A stretch of 40,494 nt of DNA from Candidatus Zixiibacteriota bacterium (lineage in GTDB: Bacteria; Zixibacteria; MSB-5A5; GN15; JAAZOE01): the NCBI GenBank assembly GCA_036480375.1, contig JAZGGI010000036.1:1-40494 (forward strand), in the 5' to 3' direction. The notes below the pieces were generated by a model. It was not told where the DNA came from and did no database searches. It saw only the letters and a program-made list of their open reading frames with translations. Made by a program: the position numbers and the translations under genes. Below are positions 8,959 through 19,213 of this stretch, one piece after another (within the stretch, counting starts at the first letter, position 1; every line of letters starts with the position of its first letter).

Positions 8959-10170
8959 TTAACTTAGAAGCTGATTCCAGAAGATTACTTGTACTTGAGT
9001 CGAAGCCGGTACATTATTTCCGGAGAGATCACTAAAAATCAATCCGTCCGAATTTAAAAGTGCCGACAATGCCGCCGATGACTTCTTTTCCGAATACTCG
9101 GCCGTAATACCGCTCCGGGTCCGCCGGAATTTTCCCGGCCAGATAAGCAGCCGCCCGCCCGGCCTGATTTGCTCGGGATTAATAACCGCGTTTTCGGCAC
9201 GAATCTCATAATCATCTCGACCGATCAATTTCTTTAGAACTGGAATAACAAAAACGGCGCAGGTTACGGCGGTTGATAACGGATTCCCCGGCAAACCAAA
9301 CAACAACCGTTGACTTTTTTTGGCGAAGAAGATTGGTTTGCCCGGTTTGATTCTCGCCTTATGAAAAACCTGCTCGAAGCCGATTTTATTCGCCGCTCCG
9401 ATAACGAGATCTTTTTCGCCAGCCGATACCCCGCCGCTTGTAATGATGACGTCAAAATCAGCCGAGAGGGCTTGCTCGAGTTTTTCAGATTCATCGATAA
9501 CCGTCGGACCGATTTCAATCCGTTCGACAAAGGGTTTAATTAGAGACGAGACAGTGTACTTGTTACTATCATATATTTGTCCGAATTTTAATTTTTCGCC
9601 GGGGGAAACGAGCTCATTGCCGTTGGAAAACACAAGTACGGACGGCTTTTTAAATACCGAAACTTCTTTAAGACCGATTCCGGCCAGGATACCGATGTCA
9701 AGGGGAGTCAATAAATGACCTCGTTTTAATACGAGTTGGTCTTTATGTATATCTTCCCCGGCCGGCCTTATGTTTTTCCCCTGAGTAATAGGCTTTGCAA
9801 AAACAACATGGGCATCATCATAAACCGTATCTTCGAATTTAACAACCGTATCAAATTTATCCGGCACAGGAGCCCCGGTCATTATTCTAATCGGTCGATT
9901 TTCCGATATTTTCGCGCTGCCGGAATCACCGGCAAAGACAGTCGTATCGATCGGCAATTTAATTGGATTATCGGGTGAGCATCTTTCCAACCATTCGGCC
10001 CGAACGGCAAATCCATCCATCGCGGAATTTCTAAAGGGTGAGATCGATAATGGCGAGATTATATCTCTTGAAAGAACATAAGAGACGGCGTCTTCAATCG
10101 GTTTTGCCATTTCACCGAGCGGATTAGCAGCATCAAAGATCAAGGAAGAAGCTTCTTCGAATTCAATCAT
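8959..10170 (-). CDS. moeA: Molybdopterin molybdenumtransferase MoeA
   Basis: A 403-residue protein of normal MoeA length. It inserts molybdate into adenylylated molybdopterin in the last step of Moco synthesis. Recognisable segments are the N-terminal SPFRNSAMDGFAVR, RIMTGAPVP, IRPAGEDI, and the MogA-like domain with SNGNELV, TSGGVSAGEKD and FGLPGNPLS. The C-terminal beta-barrel domain IV follows. The start ATG overlaps the mogA stop by eight bases, so the two are translationally coupled. It is the last recognisable Moco gene of the operon. The family is certain from these motifs. Confidence 0.95.
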   Translation of the reverse strand: MIEFEEASSLIFDAANPLGEMAKPIEDAVSYVLSRDIISPLSISPFRNSAMDGFAVRAEWLERCSPDNPIKLPIDTTVFAGDSGSAKISENRPIRIMTGAPVPDKFDTVVKFEDTVYDDAHVVFAKPITQGKNIRPAGEDIHKDQLVLKRGHLLTPLDIGILAGIGLKEVSVFKKPSVLVFSNGNELVSPGEKLKFGQIYDSNKYTVSSLIKPFVERIEIGPTVIDESEKLEQALSADFDVIITSGGVSAGEKDLVIGAANKIGFEQVFHKARIKPGKPIFFAKKSQRLLFGLPGNPLSTAVTCAVFVIPVLKKLIGRDDYEIRAENAVINPEQIRPGGRLLIWPGKFRRTRSGITAEYSEKKSSAALSALLNSDGLIFSDLSGNNVPASTQVQVIFWNQLLS

Positions 10171-10669
10171 TTTGTTTTGAATCCTTCTGGCAATCTTTTA
10201 ATTGTCCGGCGATTAGCCTGAGGGGATGCCCAATTATGGGGAGCAAAAACTCGAGTATTTCACTAACCGCCTTGGGTGAACCGGGCAAATTAATTATAAA
10301 TGAATTTTTGGCGACTCCCGATACGGCCCGGGAAAATATGGCGTTAGAAGAATACTGGGCGCTAAATGTTCGTATCGCCTGGTCAACTCCCGGAGTAGGT
10401 TTCTCAATTATCTTTTTGGTAACCTCGGGTGTGATATCTCGCGGGGTGCATCCGGTACCGCCAGATGTAAGAATCAAGCAGGTATCAGACGCGATCATTT
10501 TATTGAGGGCGGCCGTTAATTTCTCGGCATCATCGGGGACAATATCGGTATGCTCTATTGAATATTTTGATTCATCGAGAAATGACCGAAATGCCGGAAT
10601 GCATTTATCTTCCCGCTCACCCGCTGAAGCCCGATCGGAAACGATTATTATGCCGACTGAAAATCTCAT
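10163..10669 (-). CDS. mogA: Molybdopterin adenylyltransferase, MogA/MoaB family
   Basis: This enzyme adenylylates molybdopterin ahead of MoeA. The motifs SDRASAGE, LTSGGTGCTPRDITPE and NLPGSPKAVSEILE are those of the MogA/MoaB fold. I place the start at ATG 10669, giving 168 residues, because it lies directly behind the MOSC gene stop (TAATATG). The eight codons upstream of it have no proper start. MogA and MoaB cannot be separated with certainty from motifs alone; adjacency to moeA favours the biosynthetic role. Confidence 0.9.
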   Translation of the reverse strand: MRFSVGIIIVSDRASAGEREDKCIPAFRSFLDESKYSIEHTDIVPDDAEKLTAALNKMIASDTCLILTSGGTGCTPRDITPEVTKKIIEKPTPGVDQAIRTFSAQYSSNAIFSRAVSGVAKNSFIINLPGSPKAVSEILEFLLPIIGHPLRLIAGQLKDCQKDSKQND

Positions 10670-10670
10670 A

Positions 10671-11108
10671 TTATTCGAGCGCGACCGTATCACCGACTGA
10701 TATTTCTCCGCTTTCGACGACGCGCGCGAAGACGCCTTCCCGAGGCATGATGCAGTCGCCGACCAGTTTTTTTATCTGGCAACCGTTATGACACTTTTTA
10801 CCAATTTGCGTGATAATTAGTTTTATGCCTTTGCCAATGGTAACCGTGTCGCCGATTTGAACCCGCGATAAATCGATTCCGGCAGTGGTTATATTCTCCG
10901 CAAAATCGCCTGGCTGAACATTCAGCAGTTCATGTTTGACTTTGACAAATGATTCCAGGGGCAACAGGGATACCTGTCTTTTACTCCCAAAATGAGCGTC
11001 GCCCTCCATGCCCTTATCCATAATCAGGTGGGCTGATTCGACGTTTTTCTTTTTTCCCCCTTTATTTTTGGAAATCGAAATTCTATGTATTTTCCCGGCC
11101 GAAGTCAC
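10671..11108 (-). CDS. MOSC-domain protein
   Basis: A stand-alone MOSC domain of 145 residues. It shows GDAHFGSKRQVSLLPLESF, GDFAENITTAGIDL, IGDTVTIGKGIKLIIT, a Cys pair in CHNGC, and IMPREGVFARVVESG. MOSC proteins bind or transfer the molybdenum cofactor or its sulfur, and small ones are common in Moco operons. The GTG at 11108 is preferred over an upstream TTG at 11132 because AGGAGG lies eight bases before it. The gene overlaps the end of moaC by 26 bases and abuts mogA. Confidence 0.88.
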   Translation of the reverse strand: MTSAGKIHRISISKNKGGKKKNVESAHLIMDKGMEGDAHFGSKRQVSLLPLESFVKVKHELLNVQPGDFAENITTAGIDLSRVQIGDTVTIGKGIKLIITQIGKKCHNGCQIKKLVGDCIMPREGVFARVVESGEISVGDTVALE

Positions 11109-11565
11109 CTGACTTGCCTCCTGTTTTCTCAAGTAGCATCAAATCTGAAATGACAATATCTTTATGTACCGCTTTGAGCATATCATAAACCGTCAGGGCC
11201 GCGACGGAACAGGCTGTCAGAGCTTCCATCTCCACTCCGGTTCGCGACGAGCACCTAACAGTCGAAAAGATTTTTATCATATTTTGGGATTGGTCGAATT
11301 CAAATTCAATTTCAACATGATTTAACGGTAGTTGATGACAGAGAGGAATTAATTCCGAAGTTTTCTTGGCCGCCTGAATTCCGGCCAGTTTTGCCACCGT
11401 TATAACGTCGCCTTTGGCGCTGCGATTTTCACGAGCGATCTCAAAACTTGTCTCATTTAGTTTAACAGAAACAGTTGCTCTTGCCTGGCGATTGGTAATC
11501 TCTTTTTCGCCGACATTTACCATTCGAGCCTTTCCGTCTGAATCGAGATGGGTCGGTTTATTCAT
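11083..11565 (-). CDS. moaC: Cyclic pyranopterin monophosphate synthase MoaC
   Basis: A 160-residue protein of normal family length. MoaC converts the MoaA product into cyclic pyranopterin monophosphate. It shows ARMVNVGEKEITNRQA, AKLAGIQAAKKTSELIPLCHQLP, VRCSSRTGVEMEALTACSVA, LTVYDMLKAVHKD and the end motif LLEKTGGKSG, all classical. The start ATG lies one base past the moaA stop and GGGGGA serves as ribosome-binding site. Confidence 0.95.
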   Translation of the reverse strand: MNKPTHLDSDGKARMVNVGEKEITNRQARATVSVKLNETSFEIARENRSAKGDVITVAKLAGIQAAKKTSELIPLCHQLPLNHVEIEFEFDQSQNMIKIFSTVRCSSRTGVEMEALTACSVAALTVYDMLKAVHKDIVISDLMLLEKTGGKSGDFGRENT

Positions 11566-11566
11566 A

Positions 11567-12514
11567 TTATCCCCCGACCTGATAAAATGAAGGCAGACTA
11601 TTGAGATTATTCATCGCGGCATTACATCCTCGAAGATTTTTCGACGCCAATATCTGCGACAATTTGTTCTGCAAATCAATTGATTTATCATTCAGTATAC
11701 TAAACAGATTAAATCCTTGTGAAGAAAACAGGCAGCCGTATATCATCCCATCGGCGGTCAATCGAATTCGATCGCATGAGGCGCAAAAAGGATGGCTGAC
11801 CGGGCTGATAAATCCTACCCGAATATCCAAATCCGGCGAGCTGAAGTAACGGGCCGCTGCCGAATCTTTATGAGGCAATGGAGAAAATTCGTATCTTGAA
11901 TTTGCCCTCAGCTCTTCATTAGCCAGATACCCTCTCCTTTGTTTATTATTATGCCGGGTAGGCATGTATTCAATAAATCTGATATCGATGCCCATTGTGT
12001 TCGCGAATTCAATCATATCATCGGCTTCATCGTCATTAACACCGTTGATGAGAACGCAATTCAATTTTACTTCCGATATTGATTCACGGGTGGATTCGAT
12101 TCCTCTGATTACTTTATCGAAGCCATCAACCGATGTTATAGACCTGAATTTATCGGGATTGAGAGTATCGAGGCTGATATTAACGCTGTCAAGTCCGCTT
12201 TCGGCATACAAAGGCGCGAGTTTTTCGAGAAGAAGTCCGTTTGTAGTTATTGCGGTAAAAATATCGGGATCGAATTCTTTGGCGTGGCTTATGAGTTTGG
12301 GGAGCGGTTTATAAAGAGTAGGTTCGCCGCCGGTAAATCGAATTTTGCGTATGCCCAATTGATGCAATGCGCGAATAGCATCAAAAAATTTCCCGGGAGG
12401 GATTTGAGGCAATTTCGGATCATTTGTTCCCGGCGGACGGCAATAGAAACAGTTCAAATTGCAATTAGACAATAATGATAATCGAAGATATTCTGGCATC
12501 TTAATCGCGTTCAT
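11567..12514 (-). CDS. moaA: GTP 3',8-cyclase MoaA (radical SAM)
   Basis: MoaA performs the first committed step of Moco synthesis on GTP. The radical-SAM cluster motif is in NCNLNCFYC. FTGGEPTLYK is the SAM-binding GGEP region, and the second, C-terminal cluster uses CASCDRIRL ... YGC. The protein ends in Gly-Gly, the conserved MoaA tail needed by the enzyme. I start it at ATG 12514 (316 residues), where GAGG lies upstream and the overlap with mobB is 14 bases. An upstream start at 12550 is possible but would give a 50-base overlap. Confidence 0.95.
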   Translation of the reverse strand: MNAIKMPEYLRLSLLSNCNLNCFYCRPPGTNDPKLPQIPPGKFFDAIRALHQLGIRKIRFTGGEPTLYKPLPKLISHAKEFDPDIFTAITTNGLLLEKLAPLYAESGLDSVNISLDTLNPDKFRSITSVDGFDKVIRGIESTRESISEVKLNCVLINGVNDDEADDMIEFANTMGIDIRFIEYMPTRHNNKQRRGYLANEELRANSRYEFSPLPHKDSAAARYFSSPDLDIRVGFISPVSHPFCASCDRIRLTADGMIYGCLFSSQGFNLFSILNDKSIDLQNKLSQILASKNLRGCNAAMNNLNSLPSFYQVGG

Positions 12515-13010
12515 GGTCATCATCCTCGGGTTGCAAGCCAAAACGGCCAATCACAAATTCAGCCAACTCTTCCGTTTTGTCGAGAGGGAAATAATCGTTC
12601 GCCATATTGTTATTAACGGGTCCGTAAACGGCAATAATATGGTCGGAGCTAATCTCTCCTAAATCATCAATTTTGCGTGTCAAAAGTATCGTGGACCTTT
12701 TTGCTCCTTTATTACCTTCAACAAAGCAAACATCACAGTTGTTCTTGAGAAACTCAAAAATTTTTACCCTGTTTTCTTCATCGGGTGAGGCGAAAAGCGC
12801 CATGTCGGCGCTGCTAATCCCGACCGTAAAGCGCGCCCCGGCCCGCCGGTGGCGAAAAGTATCTTTACCTTCGGTATCAAAAGTATGCGAATGAAAAGTA
12901 TGTTTTACCGTCGCCACTCTCAACCCGCGATGGCTCAGAAGGGAGGCCATTTTTTCTATCAATGTTGTTTTGCCGGAATTCCGGGCGCCGATAATACCTA
13001 TTTCAATCAT
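12501..13010 (-). CDS. mobB: Molybdopterin-guanine dinucleotide biosynthesis adaptor MobB
   Basis: A small P-loop GTPase that assists MobA. Walker A is GARNSGKTTLIEKM, followed by VATVKHTFHSHTFDTEGKDT, in which the His/Asp pair is typical of MobB, and CFVEGNKG. I choose the ATG at 13010 (169 residues) because it overlaps the mobA stop as ATGA and GGGGGTCG precedes it. The longer frame starting at 13061 would lie inside mobA. Confidence 0.92.
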   Translation of the reverse strand: MIEIGIIGARNSGKTTLIEKMASLLSHRGLRVATVKHTFHSHTFDTEGKDTFRHRRAGARFTVGISSADMALFASPDEENRVKIFEFLKNNCDVCFVEGNKGAKRSTILLTRKIDDLGEISSDHIIAVYGPVNNNMANDYFPLDKTEELAEFVIGRFGLQPEDDDHERD

Positions 13011-13564
13011 AACTCGACCCCCGATAATTCCGCGTCCCGGGGAGTATTGATATTTCTCCACTTTTTATTCGGTACCGGCAGAAGCCGGGTATCTAATTTT
13101 CCAACCGCATCCTGCATTTTGAAATTTCCTCGCTCAGCCATTGGCAGCATAACCTTCAATGCCGACTTGTGGTAAATGCCGCACAGAGGCTGGGACAGAC
13201 CATCTTCACTATACCCAAGAAATTGCTCAACCCTGTAGAGCCTGAATAAATCGGTGAGATTTTGGGGAGTTATATCAATCAAATCGGCGGCCGTGATGAA
13301 GCAAATATCTTCGGGGCAATCCTCGAGAGCCGAAATAACTCCCGCCATTGGTCCCCGAGCGTGAGGGTAGTCGGATAGCACTTTGAAAGTTTCAGATTGA
13401 TTAATTCCAACTCCATTGCCAACCAGTTTTATATCATCGCATACTGAGGCGCATGTTTCAATTATGCGTTCCAAAAGCGACAGGCCTTTTAGCTTCAAAT
13501 GCAGTTTATCTGTTCCCATCCTGGAACTGGAACCGCCGGCAAGTATGTAAGCGAATCGAGTCAT
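13007..13564 (-). CDS. mobA: Molybdenum cofactor guanylyltransferase MobA
   Basis: MobA attaches GMP to molybdopterin, so this organism makes the MGD form used by the DMSO-reductase family. The 185-residue protein shows the nucleotidyltransferase opening ILAGGSSSRMGTDK, the metal-site region FITAADLIDI (an A replaces the usual C or G), QPLCGIYHK and the terminal NINTPRD. It is the first gene of the operon. There is no separate ribosome-binding site: the start codon lies just after the terminator hairpin at 13566-13597, so its expression depends on that leader. Confidence 0.93.
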   Translation of the reverse strand: MTRFAYILAGGSSSRMGTDKLHLKLKGLSLLERIIETCASVCDDIKLVGNGVGINQSETFKVLSDYPHARGPMAGVISALEDCPEDICFITAADLIDITPQNLTDLFRLYRVEQFLGYSEDGLSQPLCGIYHKSALKVMLPMAERGNFKMQDAVGKLDTRLLPVPNKKWRNINTPRDAELSGVEL

Positions 13565-17055: not shown

Positions 17056-17598
17056 TTAGTCCGATATCAAGCCATAGGCTGAAAAATGATAAAGTTGGCC
17101 GACAACGATTTTTCGCTCAAAATCAATCTCGCAATCCATCTCAACGAAATTGCCATTACGGTTTATATAGACGATCCGGATAGTTGATTCATCAATACCG
17201 TTAAGATTGGCGTCACGATAAGACATTGTTACCGTAACCGGCTTATTAAAGACCAAACCATGAGTGCCGAACTCATTATAGAAAATCTCGGCATCCGGGA
17301 TATCAATGCTGAATAAAGTGTCATTATCAATTGCCCCCGGAGGAATATCAAGAGCTACGTCATAAAGCTCAATTCTACCGCCTTCTTTAGCCGATATAGC
17401 CTTCTCAGTATAAAGGCTTAAACCCTTGGCGAACATAACCCCTTCATCGGTTCTGTTCAAGAGCCTTGGCCCGTCGCTGGAACTCGAATCAATCGCGACA
17501 GGGTTATTTGAACATGCCGTAAAAAGCATGACCAAACATGCTAAAATTACAATTGCCCCGATTTTGTTAACGCTGTTGAAAAGATTAAAACCCTTCAT
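17056..17598 (-). CDS. Lipoprotein with ZU5-like domain
   Basis: A 180-residue predicted lipoprotein. The start is the ATG at 17598, eight bases after AAGGAG; a longer frame to 17637 lacks such a site. The signal peptide is hydrophobic and ends in the lipobox LFTAC. After a flexible linker comes a beta-rich region with GGRIELYDVALDIPPGAID and FNKPVTVTMSY, the IPPGA pattern of bacterial ZU5-like surface domains. It is the first gene of the operon behind the sigma-54 promoter at 17651-17667, with the TPR gene 33 bases on. Acting as an envelope-facing sensor or anchor for the TPR/HD-GYP pair is speculation. Confidence 0.8.
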   Translation of the reverse strand: MKGFNLFNSVNKIGAIVILACLVMLFTACSNNPVAIDSSSSDGPRLLNRTDEGVMFAKGLSLYTEKAISAKEGGRIELYDVALDIPPGAIDNDTLFSIDIPDAEIFYNEFGTHGLVFNKPVTVTMSYRDANLNGIDESTIRIVYINRNGNFVEMDCEIDFERKIVVGQLYHFSAYGLISD

Positions 17599-17650
17599 TT
17601 CAGCACTCCTTGTTTTTTGTGTGTGCCCTTTTCTCATTTGGAATAATCTT

Positions 17651-17667
17651 AAGCAAGGCCTGTGCCA
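17651..17667 (-). promoter_or_regulatory. Consensus sigma-54 (-24/-12) promoter
   Basis: The minus strand reads TGGCAC-AGGCC-TTGCTT, an exact match to TGGCACN5TTGCW. Transcription would start near 17640 and give a leader of about 42 bases before the lipoprotein ATG at 17598. The gene directly upstream on the same strand encodes a sigma-54 activator. Confidence 0.88.
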
Positions 17668-17693
17668 TTGATGTAAATTAGTCTTATCTTGTT

Positions 17694-17706
17694 GTACTAT
17701 TAGTAC
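17694..17706. promoter_or_regulatory. Short dyad near the sigma-54 promoter
   Basis: GTACT-ATT-AGTAC is a perfect inverted repeat about 27 bases upstream of the -24 element, a position where a second regulator or IHF-type factor could act. It is short enough to be chance. Confidence 0.25.
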
Positions 17707-17756
17707 TTACGCTATTTCATATGGGAGTGTCTGGAATAGGTAAATTACAAAGAATT

Positions 17757-17771
17757 GGAACGAATTGGACC
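17757..17771. promoter_or_regulatory. Candidate activator site 1
   Basis: GGAACG-AAT-TGGACC is an imperfect dyad sharing the half-site GGAACG with the perfect dyad at 17838-17852. It lies about 90 bases upstream of the -24 element, in the range used by enhancer-binding activators. Confidence 0.45.
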
Positions 17772-17837
17772 ACCGGACAATCATAAATCATTGTTAGTTG
17801 TTGTATATTAATAACTTACTGGAAATTTCGAGAATTT

Positions 17838-17852
17838 GGAACGGTTCGTTCC
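17838..17852. promoter_or_regulatory. Candidate activator site 2 (perfect dyad)
   Basis: GGAACG-GTT-CGTTCC is a perfect 15-bp dyad lying five bases past the stop codon of the activator gene and about 170 bases upstream of the -24 element. Its centre is 81 bp from that of site 1. It is the best candidate for the binding site of the adjacent Fis-type HTH. Confidence 0.5.
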
Positions 17853-17857
17853 ATCAA

Positions 17858-19213
17858 TCAACTTTTGCGGCGATTTTGTTCCAGTTTGTGGAAATCTATT
17901 ATGCGCCTTAAGCGGGGACGGGATATCTTAAGGTATTCGGCCGTCTGGGATTTGTTCCATTCACATATATTGAGGACTTCCAGAACAACCTGAGCCTCAA
18001 TTTCGTCGAGAGCCTTTCCCCGCGGAGGCATATTTATGGTAACATGCTTTCTCTCGGCGACGCCCACGCGGCTTTTTTTGAGGGCCGACCGGATTTCCTG
18101 CAGATTGATTGTCCGCCCTCTATTTAGTAATACCGCTTTTTCTATGACATTGGAAAGTTCCCTGATATTCCCGGCCCAGTAATGACTTTTCATCTCTTCG
18201 ATTACTTCATCTTTTATAATCAACTGCGGCTTACTATATAGAGAACTGAAATGTCTGAGAAAATGATGCACCAGTTCAGGGATATCTTCCGGGCGTTCAC
18301 GCAGAGGCGGGATTTCAATCGTCAACAAATTAAGTCGAAAATATAAATCCTCTCGGAATTTCCCCGATTCTATGGCATTTTTCAAATCAAGATTGGTTGC
18401 CGCGACGACCCGAACATTAATATTTCTCTCGGCGACCTCCCCGACACGGCGTAGTTTTTTATCCTCGAGAATCTTAAGCAGCTTAGCCTGAGCCGAAGCG
18501 GTCAGGTTGCCGACTTCGTCGAGAAACAAAATACCGTTTTGGGCAAATTCAAATAATCCCAGTTTTTCGGCCTTTGCGTCGGTAAAAGCGCCTTTGGAAT
18601 GTCCGAACAATTCAGCCTCAAATAGTTCATCGGGAATCGCCGAGCAGTTGACCTCCACCATATTGGAAGCCGCCCGAACGCCGGTACTATGGAGAATTTT
18701 TGATATTAAACTTTTACCGGTTCCGGTTTCACCCAGTATCAATGCGCTGGGGAAATCGACATCCGATAAGACTAATATTGTTTTGCGGATTTCCTGAATA
18801 TGTTTGGAATTTCCGACCAGGGCCTGAATATCGAATCCATCTTTGCCGGAAGGAGGGGCGGGAATTTCATTTTTCAGTTCTTCCAGAAAATAATGGAGTT
18901 TTTCCAGACATTCATCGGAGGTTAATAATTCCGAGACACCCAATTTGGAAACCCGGATTGCCTCATCAATAGTCGGATTTTTTGACTTGCCGACGATTTT
19001 GGCTTCCTTGGAGTTATGGGCCAGAGATACCAAAAAATCAGGGGATGAAAATTCGGGATTATCAAGATCGACAAATACCAGGGAGGCATCGCCGAGCTGC
19101 TCAACCGGGCCGCTTTTTTCTACCCAATGGATATCGTTGGAATTTCGGCGCTCTAATTTGCTACGATCTTTGCCACCGCAAATATCGCCGTAAATAATCG
19201 ATTTATCTGGCAT
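17858..19213 (-). CDS. Sigma-54-dependent activator with degenerate receiver
   Basis: A 451-residue NtrC-type activator. The first 115 residues look like a worn receiver: Asp49 (VFVDLD) could be the phospho-acceptor, but the N-terminal acidic pair is missing. The AAA+ domain has Walker A GETGTGKS (161-168), Walker B ILFLDE (228-233) and RERPEDIPEL. The sigma-54 contact loop reads GAFTDA (208-213), an Asp in place of the second Gly of GAFTGA. A Fis-type HTH occupies about 403-447 (NKSQTAEYLKISRPRLRRII). The ATG follows AAGGAG. It probably drives the downstream operon through the promoter at 17651. Its own signal, phosphorylated or not, is unknown. Confidence 0.92.
   Translation of the reverse strand: MPDKSIIYGDICGGKDRSKLERRNSNDIHWVEKSGPVEQLGDASLVFVDLDNPEFSSPDFLVSLAHNSKEAKIVGKSKNPTIDEAIRVSKLGVSELLTSDECLEKLHYFLEELKNEIPAPPSGKDGFDIQALVGNSKHIQEIRKTILVLSDVDFPSALILGETGTGKSLISKILHSTGVRAASNMVEVNCSAIPDELFEAELFGHSKGAFTDAKAEKLGLFEFAQNGILFLDEVGNLTASAQAKLLKILEDKKLRRVGEVAERNINVRVVAATNLDLKNAIESGKFREDLYFRLNLLTIEIPPLRERPEDIPELVHHFLRHFSSLYSKPQLIIKDEVIEEMKSHYWAGNIRELSNVIEKAVLLNRGRTINLQEIRSALKKSRVGVAERKHVTINMPPRGKALDEIEAQVVLEVLNICEWNKSQTAEYLKISRPRLRRIIDFHKLEQNRRKS

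Follow-up and report, generated by a model that had tools for sequence, protein, structure and literature searches.

Among solved structures, the best sequence match of the sigma-54 activator described here is NtrC1 of Aquifex aeolicus (4l4u, 1ny5; E 5e-69), with which it shares the order of receiver-like domain, AAA+ domain and Fis-type HTH, while its structural matches comprise NtrX, NtrC1, NtrC4, FleQ and VpsR. It departs from the NtrC family in that the acid pair and Lys of the receiver are missing, the sigma-54 loop reads GAFTDA and the target operon is unrelated to nitrogen control. FleQ and VpsR (8p53, 7v2b) likewise carry an atypical receiver-like N-domain on the AAA+ sigma-54-activator scaffold, but differ in that both bind c-di-GMP. 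The LFRS motif of FleQ carries an Arg before the AAA+ core; at the position placed by analogy, just before A/S-L-V/I-G, the activator family described here has no Arg. DVU2106 of Desulfovibrio vulgaris, a GAFTDA sigma-54 activator that controls gene sets on both sides of it, resembles the present protein in its loop and in the predicted position of the targets next to the activator gene, but is classed as a single-component regulator and has its targets listed under cell division (PMC4641369). The same G-to-D change in the loop is found in NorR G266D, which is active without signal and still needs its enhancer sites; this one, unlike the present activator, is a laboratory mutant, and its parent protein NorR differs further by its GAF sensor domain and by acting with three enhancer sites (PMC2941729).

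We analysed a 40,494-bp stretch of DNA (the window) from an uncultured bacterium of the Zixibacteria lineage, in which the activator gene is followed on the same strand by two dyads, a sigma-54 promoter and three genes (Table 1).

Table 1. Features of the predicted sigma-54 control region and of the genes on either side of it, in window coordinates.
Feature	Coordinates	Strand	Remarks
Sigma-54 activator (bEBP): receiver-like N-domain, AAA+ with GAFTDA loop, Fis-type HTH	17858..19213	(-)	
D1, promoter-distal dyad, GGAACGAACCGTTCC (minus-strand reading)	17838..17852	(-)	predicted activator site; counterpart in 23/23 related intergenic regions
D2, promoter-proximal dyad, GGTCCAATTCGTTCC (minus-strand reading)	17757..17771	(-)	predicted activator site; counterpart in 23/23 related intergenic regions
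Sigma-54 promoter, -24 GG / -12 GC, TGGCACAGGCCTTGCT	17652..17667	(-)	exact TGGCACN5TTGCW, 0 mismatches
Predicted ribosome-binding site AAGGAG of lipoprotein gene	17606..17611	(-)	read from sequence
Lipoprotein, lipobox ending FTAC (Cys29), ZU5-like domain with invariant HFSAY	17056..17598	(-)	
TPR protein, 359 aa	15943..17022	(-)	distant paralog of TPR half of TPR-HD-GYP protein
TPR-HD-GYP protein, 631 aa	14055..15950	(-)	HD_5 1e-41; HD-GYP residues intact

A sequence-only reading of this DNA had placed an exact TGGCACN5TTGCW promoter before the lipoprotein, TPR and HD-GYP genes, and our pattern scan bears this out: the match, with its -24 GG and -12 GC elements at the fixed spacing, is the sole exact one in the window. 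The whole 3.59-Mb genome holds three such sites, as compared with one for the backwards control pattern, so that the chance of finding one in a given 220-bp gap is of the order of 1e-4; it also encodes one rpoN gene (PF04552, 3e-58). Transcription is expected to start near 17641. The lipoprotein gene most likely starts at the ATG at 17598 and not at 17637, because of the AAGGAG ribosome site and the alignment of orthologs; were 17637 the start, the longer frame would open practically where transcription is expected to begin.

All three exact promoters of the genome (17652-17667 of the window; L001, 1501-1516; L002, 1501-1516) have predicted lipoprotein genes about 30-55 bp downstream, an arrangement which fits the proposal that sigma-54 controls the bacterial exterior (PMC3162934).

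Two dyads sharing GGAACG had also been noted, about 90 and 170 bases upstream of the promoter. On the plus strand of the window GGAACGN7CC occurs just at 17757 and 17838, 81 bp apart, and the dyad centres lie 98 bp (D2) and 179 bp (D1) from the -24 GG, in line with those distances, with D1 5 bp from the stop codon of the activator gene. Read on the plus strand, D1 is GGAACGGTTCGTTCC, in which 6 of 7 pairs match, and D2 is GGAACGAATTGGACC, a weak palindrome taken alone with 4 of 7. In the comparison with relatives, blind palindrome scores were 135 for the D1 zone and 120 for the D2 zone against shuffled means of 90 (z of 12.5 and 8.2, respectively), and none of 1000 dinucleotide shuffles reached the observed score. 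Mean column information came to 1.22 bits for D1, 1.15 for D2, 0.26 for the spacers and 1.15 for the promoter, the last value being partly by construction because the promoter was chosen by consensus. Two genomes display symmetric letter changes on both dyad arms (GGAACGAATCGTTCC in G003, GGTTCATTTTGAACC in G017), so that dyad symmetry is kept.

Spacing varies within narrow classes: the centre of D2 lies 96-99 bp from the -24 GG in most genomes, 88 bp in G015 and 108-109 bp in family f3, and D1 and D2 are 78-82 bp apart, or 90-93 bp in family f3. G025 and G031 have longer activators, whose stop codons overlap D1, and keep the D1-D2 spacing. Successive length classes are roughly one helical turn apart, the pattern to be expected if the proteins have to face the same side of a loop; this supports the reading without being conclusive, since just about three independent length changes underlie it, and the 10.5-bp periodicity statistic, inflated by shared ancestry, is not taken as a probability. 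Repeated, conserved and phased, the two dyads have the features of an enhancer pair upstream of the predicted target promoter of a sigma-54 activator.

We searched 80 genomes of the same order, accepting activator orthologs at E <= 1e-100, and found the activator in 24 and the TPR gene in 24; both genes are shared by 23 of 25 genomes, and in the other two, G031 and G060, they lie near contig ends. The four-gene module is present in about 25 of the 80, with activator and operon either both there or both missing. In 20 fetched regions the four-gene block is kept while its outer neighbours vary. The order activator, D1, D2, -24/-12 and lipoprotein is found in all 23 readable intergenic regions, which span three families, and a GGCA...TTG promoter is conserved in every one of these aligned relatives; activator identity among relatives falls from 69 to about 44%, and the spacers share almost no sequence. 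Loss of the dyads or the promoter in relatives that keep the genes, the outcome that the sequence-only reading had said would count against it, is seen in 0 of the 23 gaps. These counts come from related genomes and represent non-independent events. When named genomes were searched with the activator, only paralogs of 33-45% were found, and the module family was followed through relatives in the order rather than in named genomes. The comparative evidence that the adjacent activator reads this predicted enhancer-promoter arrangement is strong.

One module, L148, comes from a family f3 genome (G033) and has an activator sequence and spacing like those of family f4, which suggests that the whole module was transferred with its sites.

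That the neighbouring gene encodes a sigma-54 activator, as had been claimed, is confirmed by its domains (PF00158, 3e-59; HTH_8, PF02954, 1e-7). Its N-domain has the predicted topology b1-a1-b2-b3-a3-b4-a4-b5-a5 of a receiver, with an invariant D49 at the end of b3 in 19 aligned orthologs; in all 19, the acid pair after b1 is absent (G9 is invariant and position 10 variable), as is the Lys after b5. With these residues missing, phosphorylation control is unlikely, and the protein departs from a phosphorylation-controlled response regulator. Since the receiver-like domain probably takes no phosphate, a partner protein or a ligand would be the more likely input. Of 24 orthologs, 20 have GAFTDA as their sigma-54 loop and 4 have GAFTGA or GSFTGA; GAFTDA is a minority among the other activators that we fetched. 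It is among the listed variants that should still activate (PMC4641369); by way of caution, a pull-down did not detect VfmH of Dickeya, another GAFTDA protein, together with RpoN (PMC10714721). Autoregulation of the activator was considered and rejected: no dyad pair lies upstream of its gene in the window, and none is consistent in relatives.

The first gene downstream of the promoter does encode a lipoprotein, in agreement with the earlier reading, whose description of it as uncharacterised holds only in part, for the product has a confidently predicted ZU5-like fold. Its structural model (mean pLDDT 82.7) matches the ZU5 domains of ankyrin and UNC5b (E 6.5e-5 to 4e-4), and 16 orthologs all keep H171-F172-S173, which lies in the turn that leads into the last strand. 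The ankyrin and UNC5b domains are like it in fold and the PIDD domain in this HFS; all three are unlike it in that the present protein is a bacterial lipoprotein with a single short domain, which scores below the Pfam ZU5 gathering cut-off (17.4 vs 21 bits). HFS, within HFSAY (17080-17090), is the motif at which PIDD and Nup98 undergo self-cleavage; in PIDD the cut falls at HF/S in the corresponding place (PMC3210808), and autoproteolysis by ZU5 domains has been suggested for surface proteins of bacteria (PMC3482391). We regard the lipoprotein as a candidate self-cleaving ZU5 domain. In G031 (B117_G9; L043 / L144), the lipoprotein gene, close to a contig end, is interrupted by two TAA codons in its reading frame and may be a pseudogene or reflect an assembly error.

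The TPR and TPR-HD-GYP genes overlap by 8 bp, which is consistent with one transcript. The HD-GYP motifs (HD-GK, HHE and GYP) are intact in the window protein and in nearly all whole homologs across the order, and the genome encodes three clear GGDEF domains, which together make c-di-GMP breakdown plausible; the predicted HD-GYP phosphodiesterase probably acts on c-di-GMP. About 490 bp downstream of the operon and on the same strand lies a molybdenum-cofactor cluster (8959-13564; MoeA, MogA, MOSC, MoaC, MoaA, MobB and MobA by sequence, with MoaC and MobB confirmed by Pfam), which was not found beside the module in fetched relatives.

Several other readings of the region were weighed. The promoter could be sigma-54 dependent while the dyads are recognised by some other regulator, whether a further sigma-54 activator, a repressor or something like LexA, and the adjacent activator acts elsewhere; about 19 sigma-54 activators are encoded in the genome, and GAAC...GTTC resembles the Bacillus-type LexA box. 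We find this highly unlikely, as the sites and the adjacent activator gene are co-inherited in every genome, with the sites against its stop codon, no second target with both dyads and a promoter is recognised in the module's own genome, and further pattern matches in the order are scattered singletons. A LexA-type box was rejected on its own account, because the half-sites are spaced by 5 where the LexA box has 4 and the arms vary widely between families. The proximity of D1 to the stop codon could also be that of a transcription terminator or RNA structure ending the activator gene, with D2 a chance match, but this is scarcely credible: 17600-17900 holds no terminator-like site, shuffled versions of the region fold just as well (z = -0.21) and it matches no Rfam family, which led us to reject RNA structure in the gap, D1 overlaps the stop codon itself in G025 and G031, and D2 recurs in 23 genomes with the same consensus and at a distance that hardly varies.

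A further possibility accepts the control region as described and takes the operon away from c-di-GMP, the HD-GYP domain being a protein-interaction module or acting on another nucleotide and the TPR regions being the main output. HD-GYP substrates are diverse, and we keep this as a serious if unlikely alternative; set against it are the HD, HHE and GYP residues retained in nearly all intact homologs of the order and the diguanylate cyclase domains encoded in the genome. We also looked for a wider regulon and rejected it: contig C45 of the same genome carries a perfect dyad with no good promoter next to it, and scans for dyads plus promoter, in this genome and across the order, returned the module and scattered single matches known by pattern only.

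Taken together, it is very likely that the locus is a self-contained sigma-54 regulatory module, in which the output of the operon probably includes a c-di-GMP phosphodiesterase. Its elements, their conservation, spacing and co-inheritance are read directly from the genomes, and from them we infer how it would work. The activator would bind the 15-bp dyads D1 and D2 immediately downstream of its own gene and assemble there into an AAA+ oligomer, which would reach RNA polymerase-sigma-54 at the -24/-12 site through DNA looping and open the promoter by ATP hydrolysis. The lipoprotein, TPR and TPR-HD-GYP genes would then be transcribed together, yielding an envelope ZU5-type lipoprotein and a cytoplasmic TPR-coupled HD-GYP phosphodiesterase with predicted activity, probably on c-di-GMP. 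The circuit put forward in the sequence-only reading is upheld for activator, dyads, sigma-54 promoter and operon by the conservation test and by the co-occurrence of activator and operon, whereas its final step, c-di-GMP breakdown, is suggested by the HD-GYP motifs. Counting against the circuit are the departure of GAFTDA from GAFTGA, the weakness of D2 alone and the roughly 19 sigma-54 activators of the genome, another of which might bind the dyads instead.

A more ambitious and rather improbable reading would be a relay from envelope to second messenger. Here the activator, its receiver unable to take a phosphate and its GAFTDA loop loosened, would work from the dyads that follow its own gene; it would drive a ZU5 lipoprotein that cleaves itself and serves to sense or reshape the cell surface, together with a TPR-HD-GYP enzyme that lowers c-di-GMP, and the TPR proteins would feed back on the activator. 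The literature searched held no paper that treats sigma-54 in Zixibacteria, nor one that brings together HD-GYP, TPR, sigma-54 and a lipoprotein; the type of control is textbook, and the gene module appears undescribed.

Regulator, sites and targets travel together, and synthetic DNA in E. coli therefore permits a test of the resulting predictions (two footprints, helical phasing and a single target operon). A natural GAFTDA loop joined to a degenerate receiver offers a test case for how signal-independent activators are restrained, and the ZU5 lipoprotein with its HFS motif adds a small candidate from bacteria to a type of self-cleaving domain that is familiar mainly from death and inflammasome proteins of animals. 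The locus provides a complete predicted control region, with binding motif, promoter and regulator, supported by comparative genomics in a lineage without a cultured model for the question.
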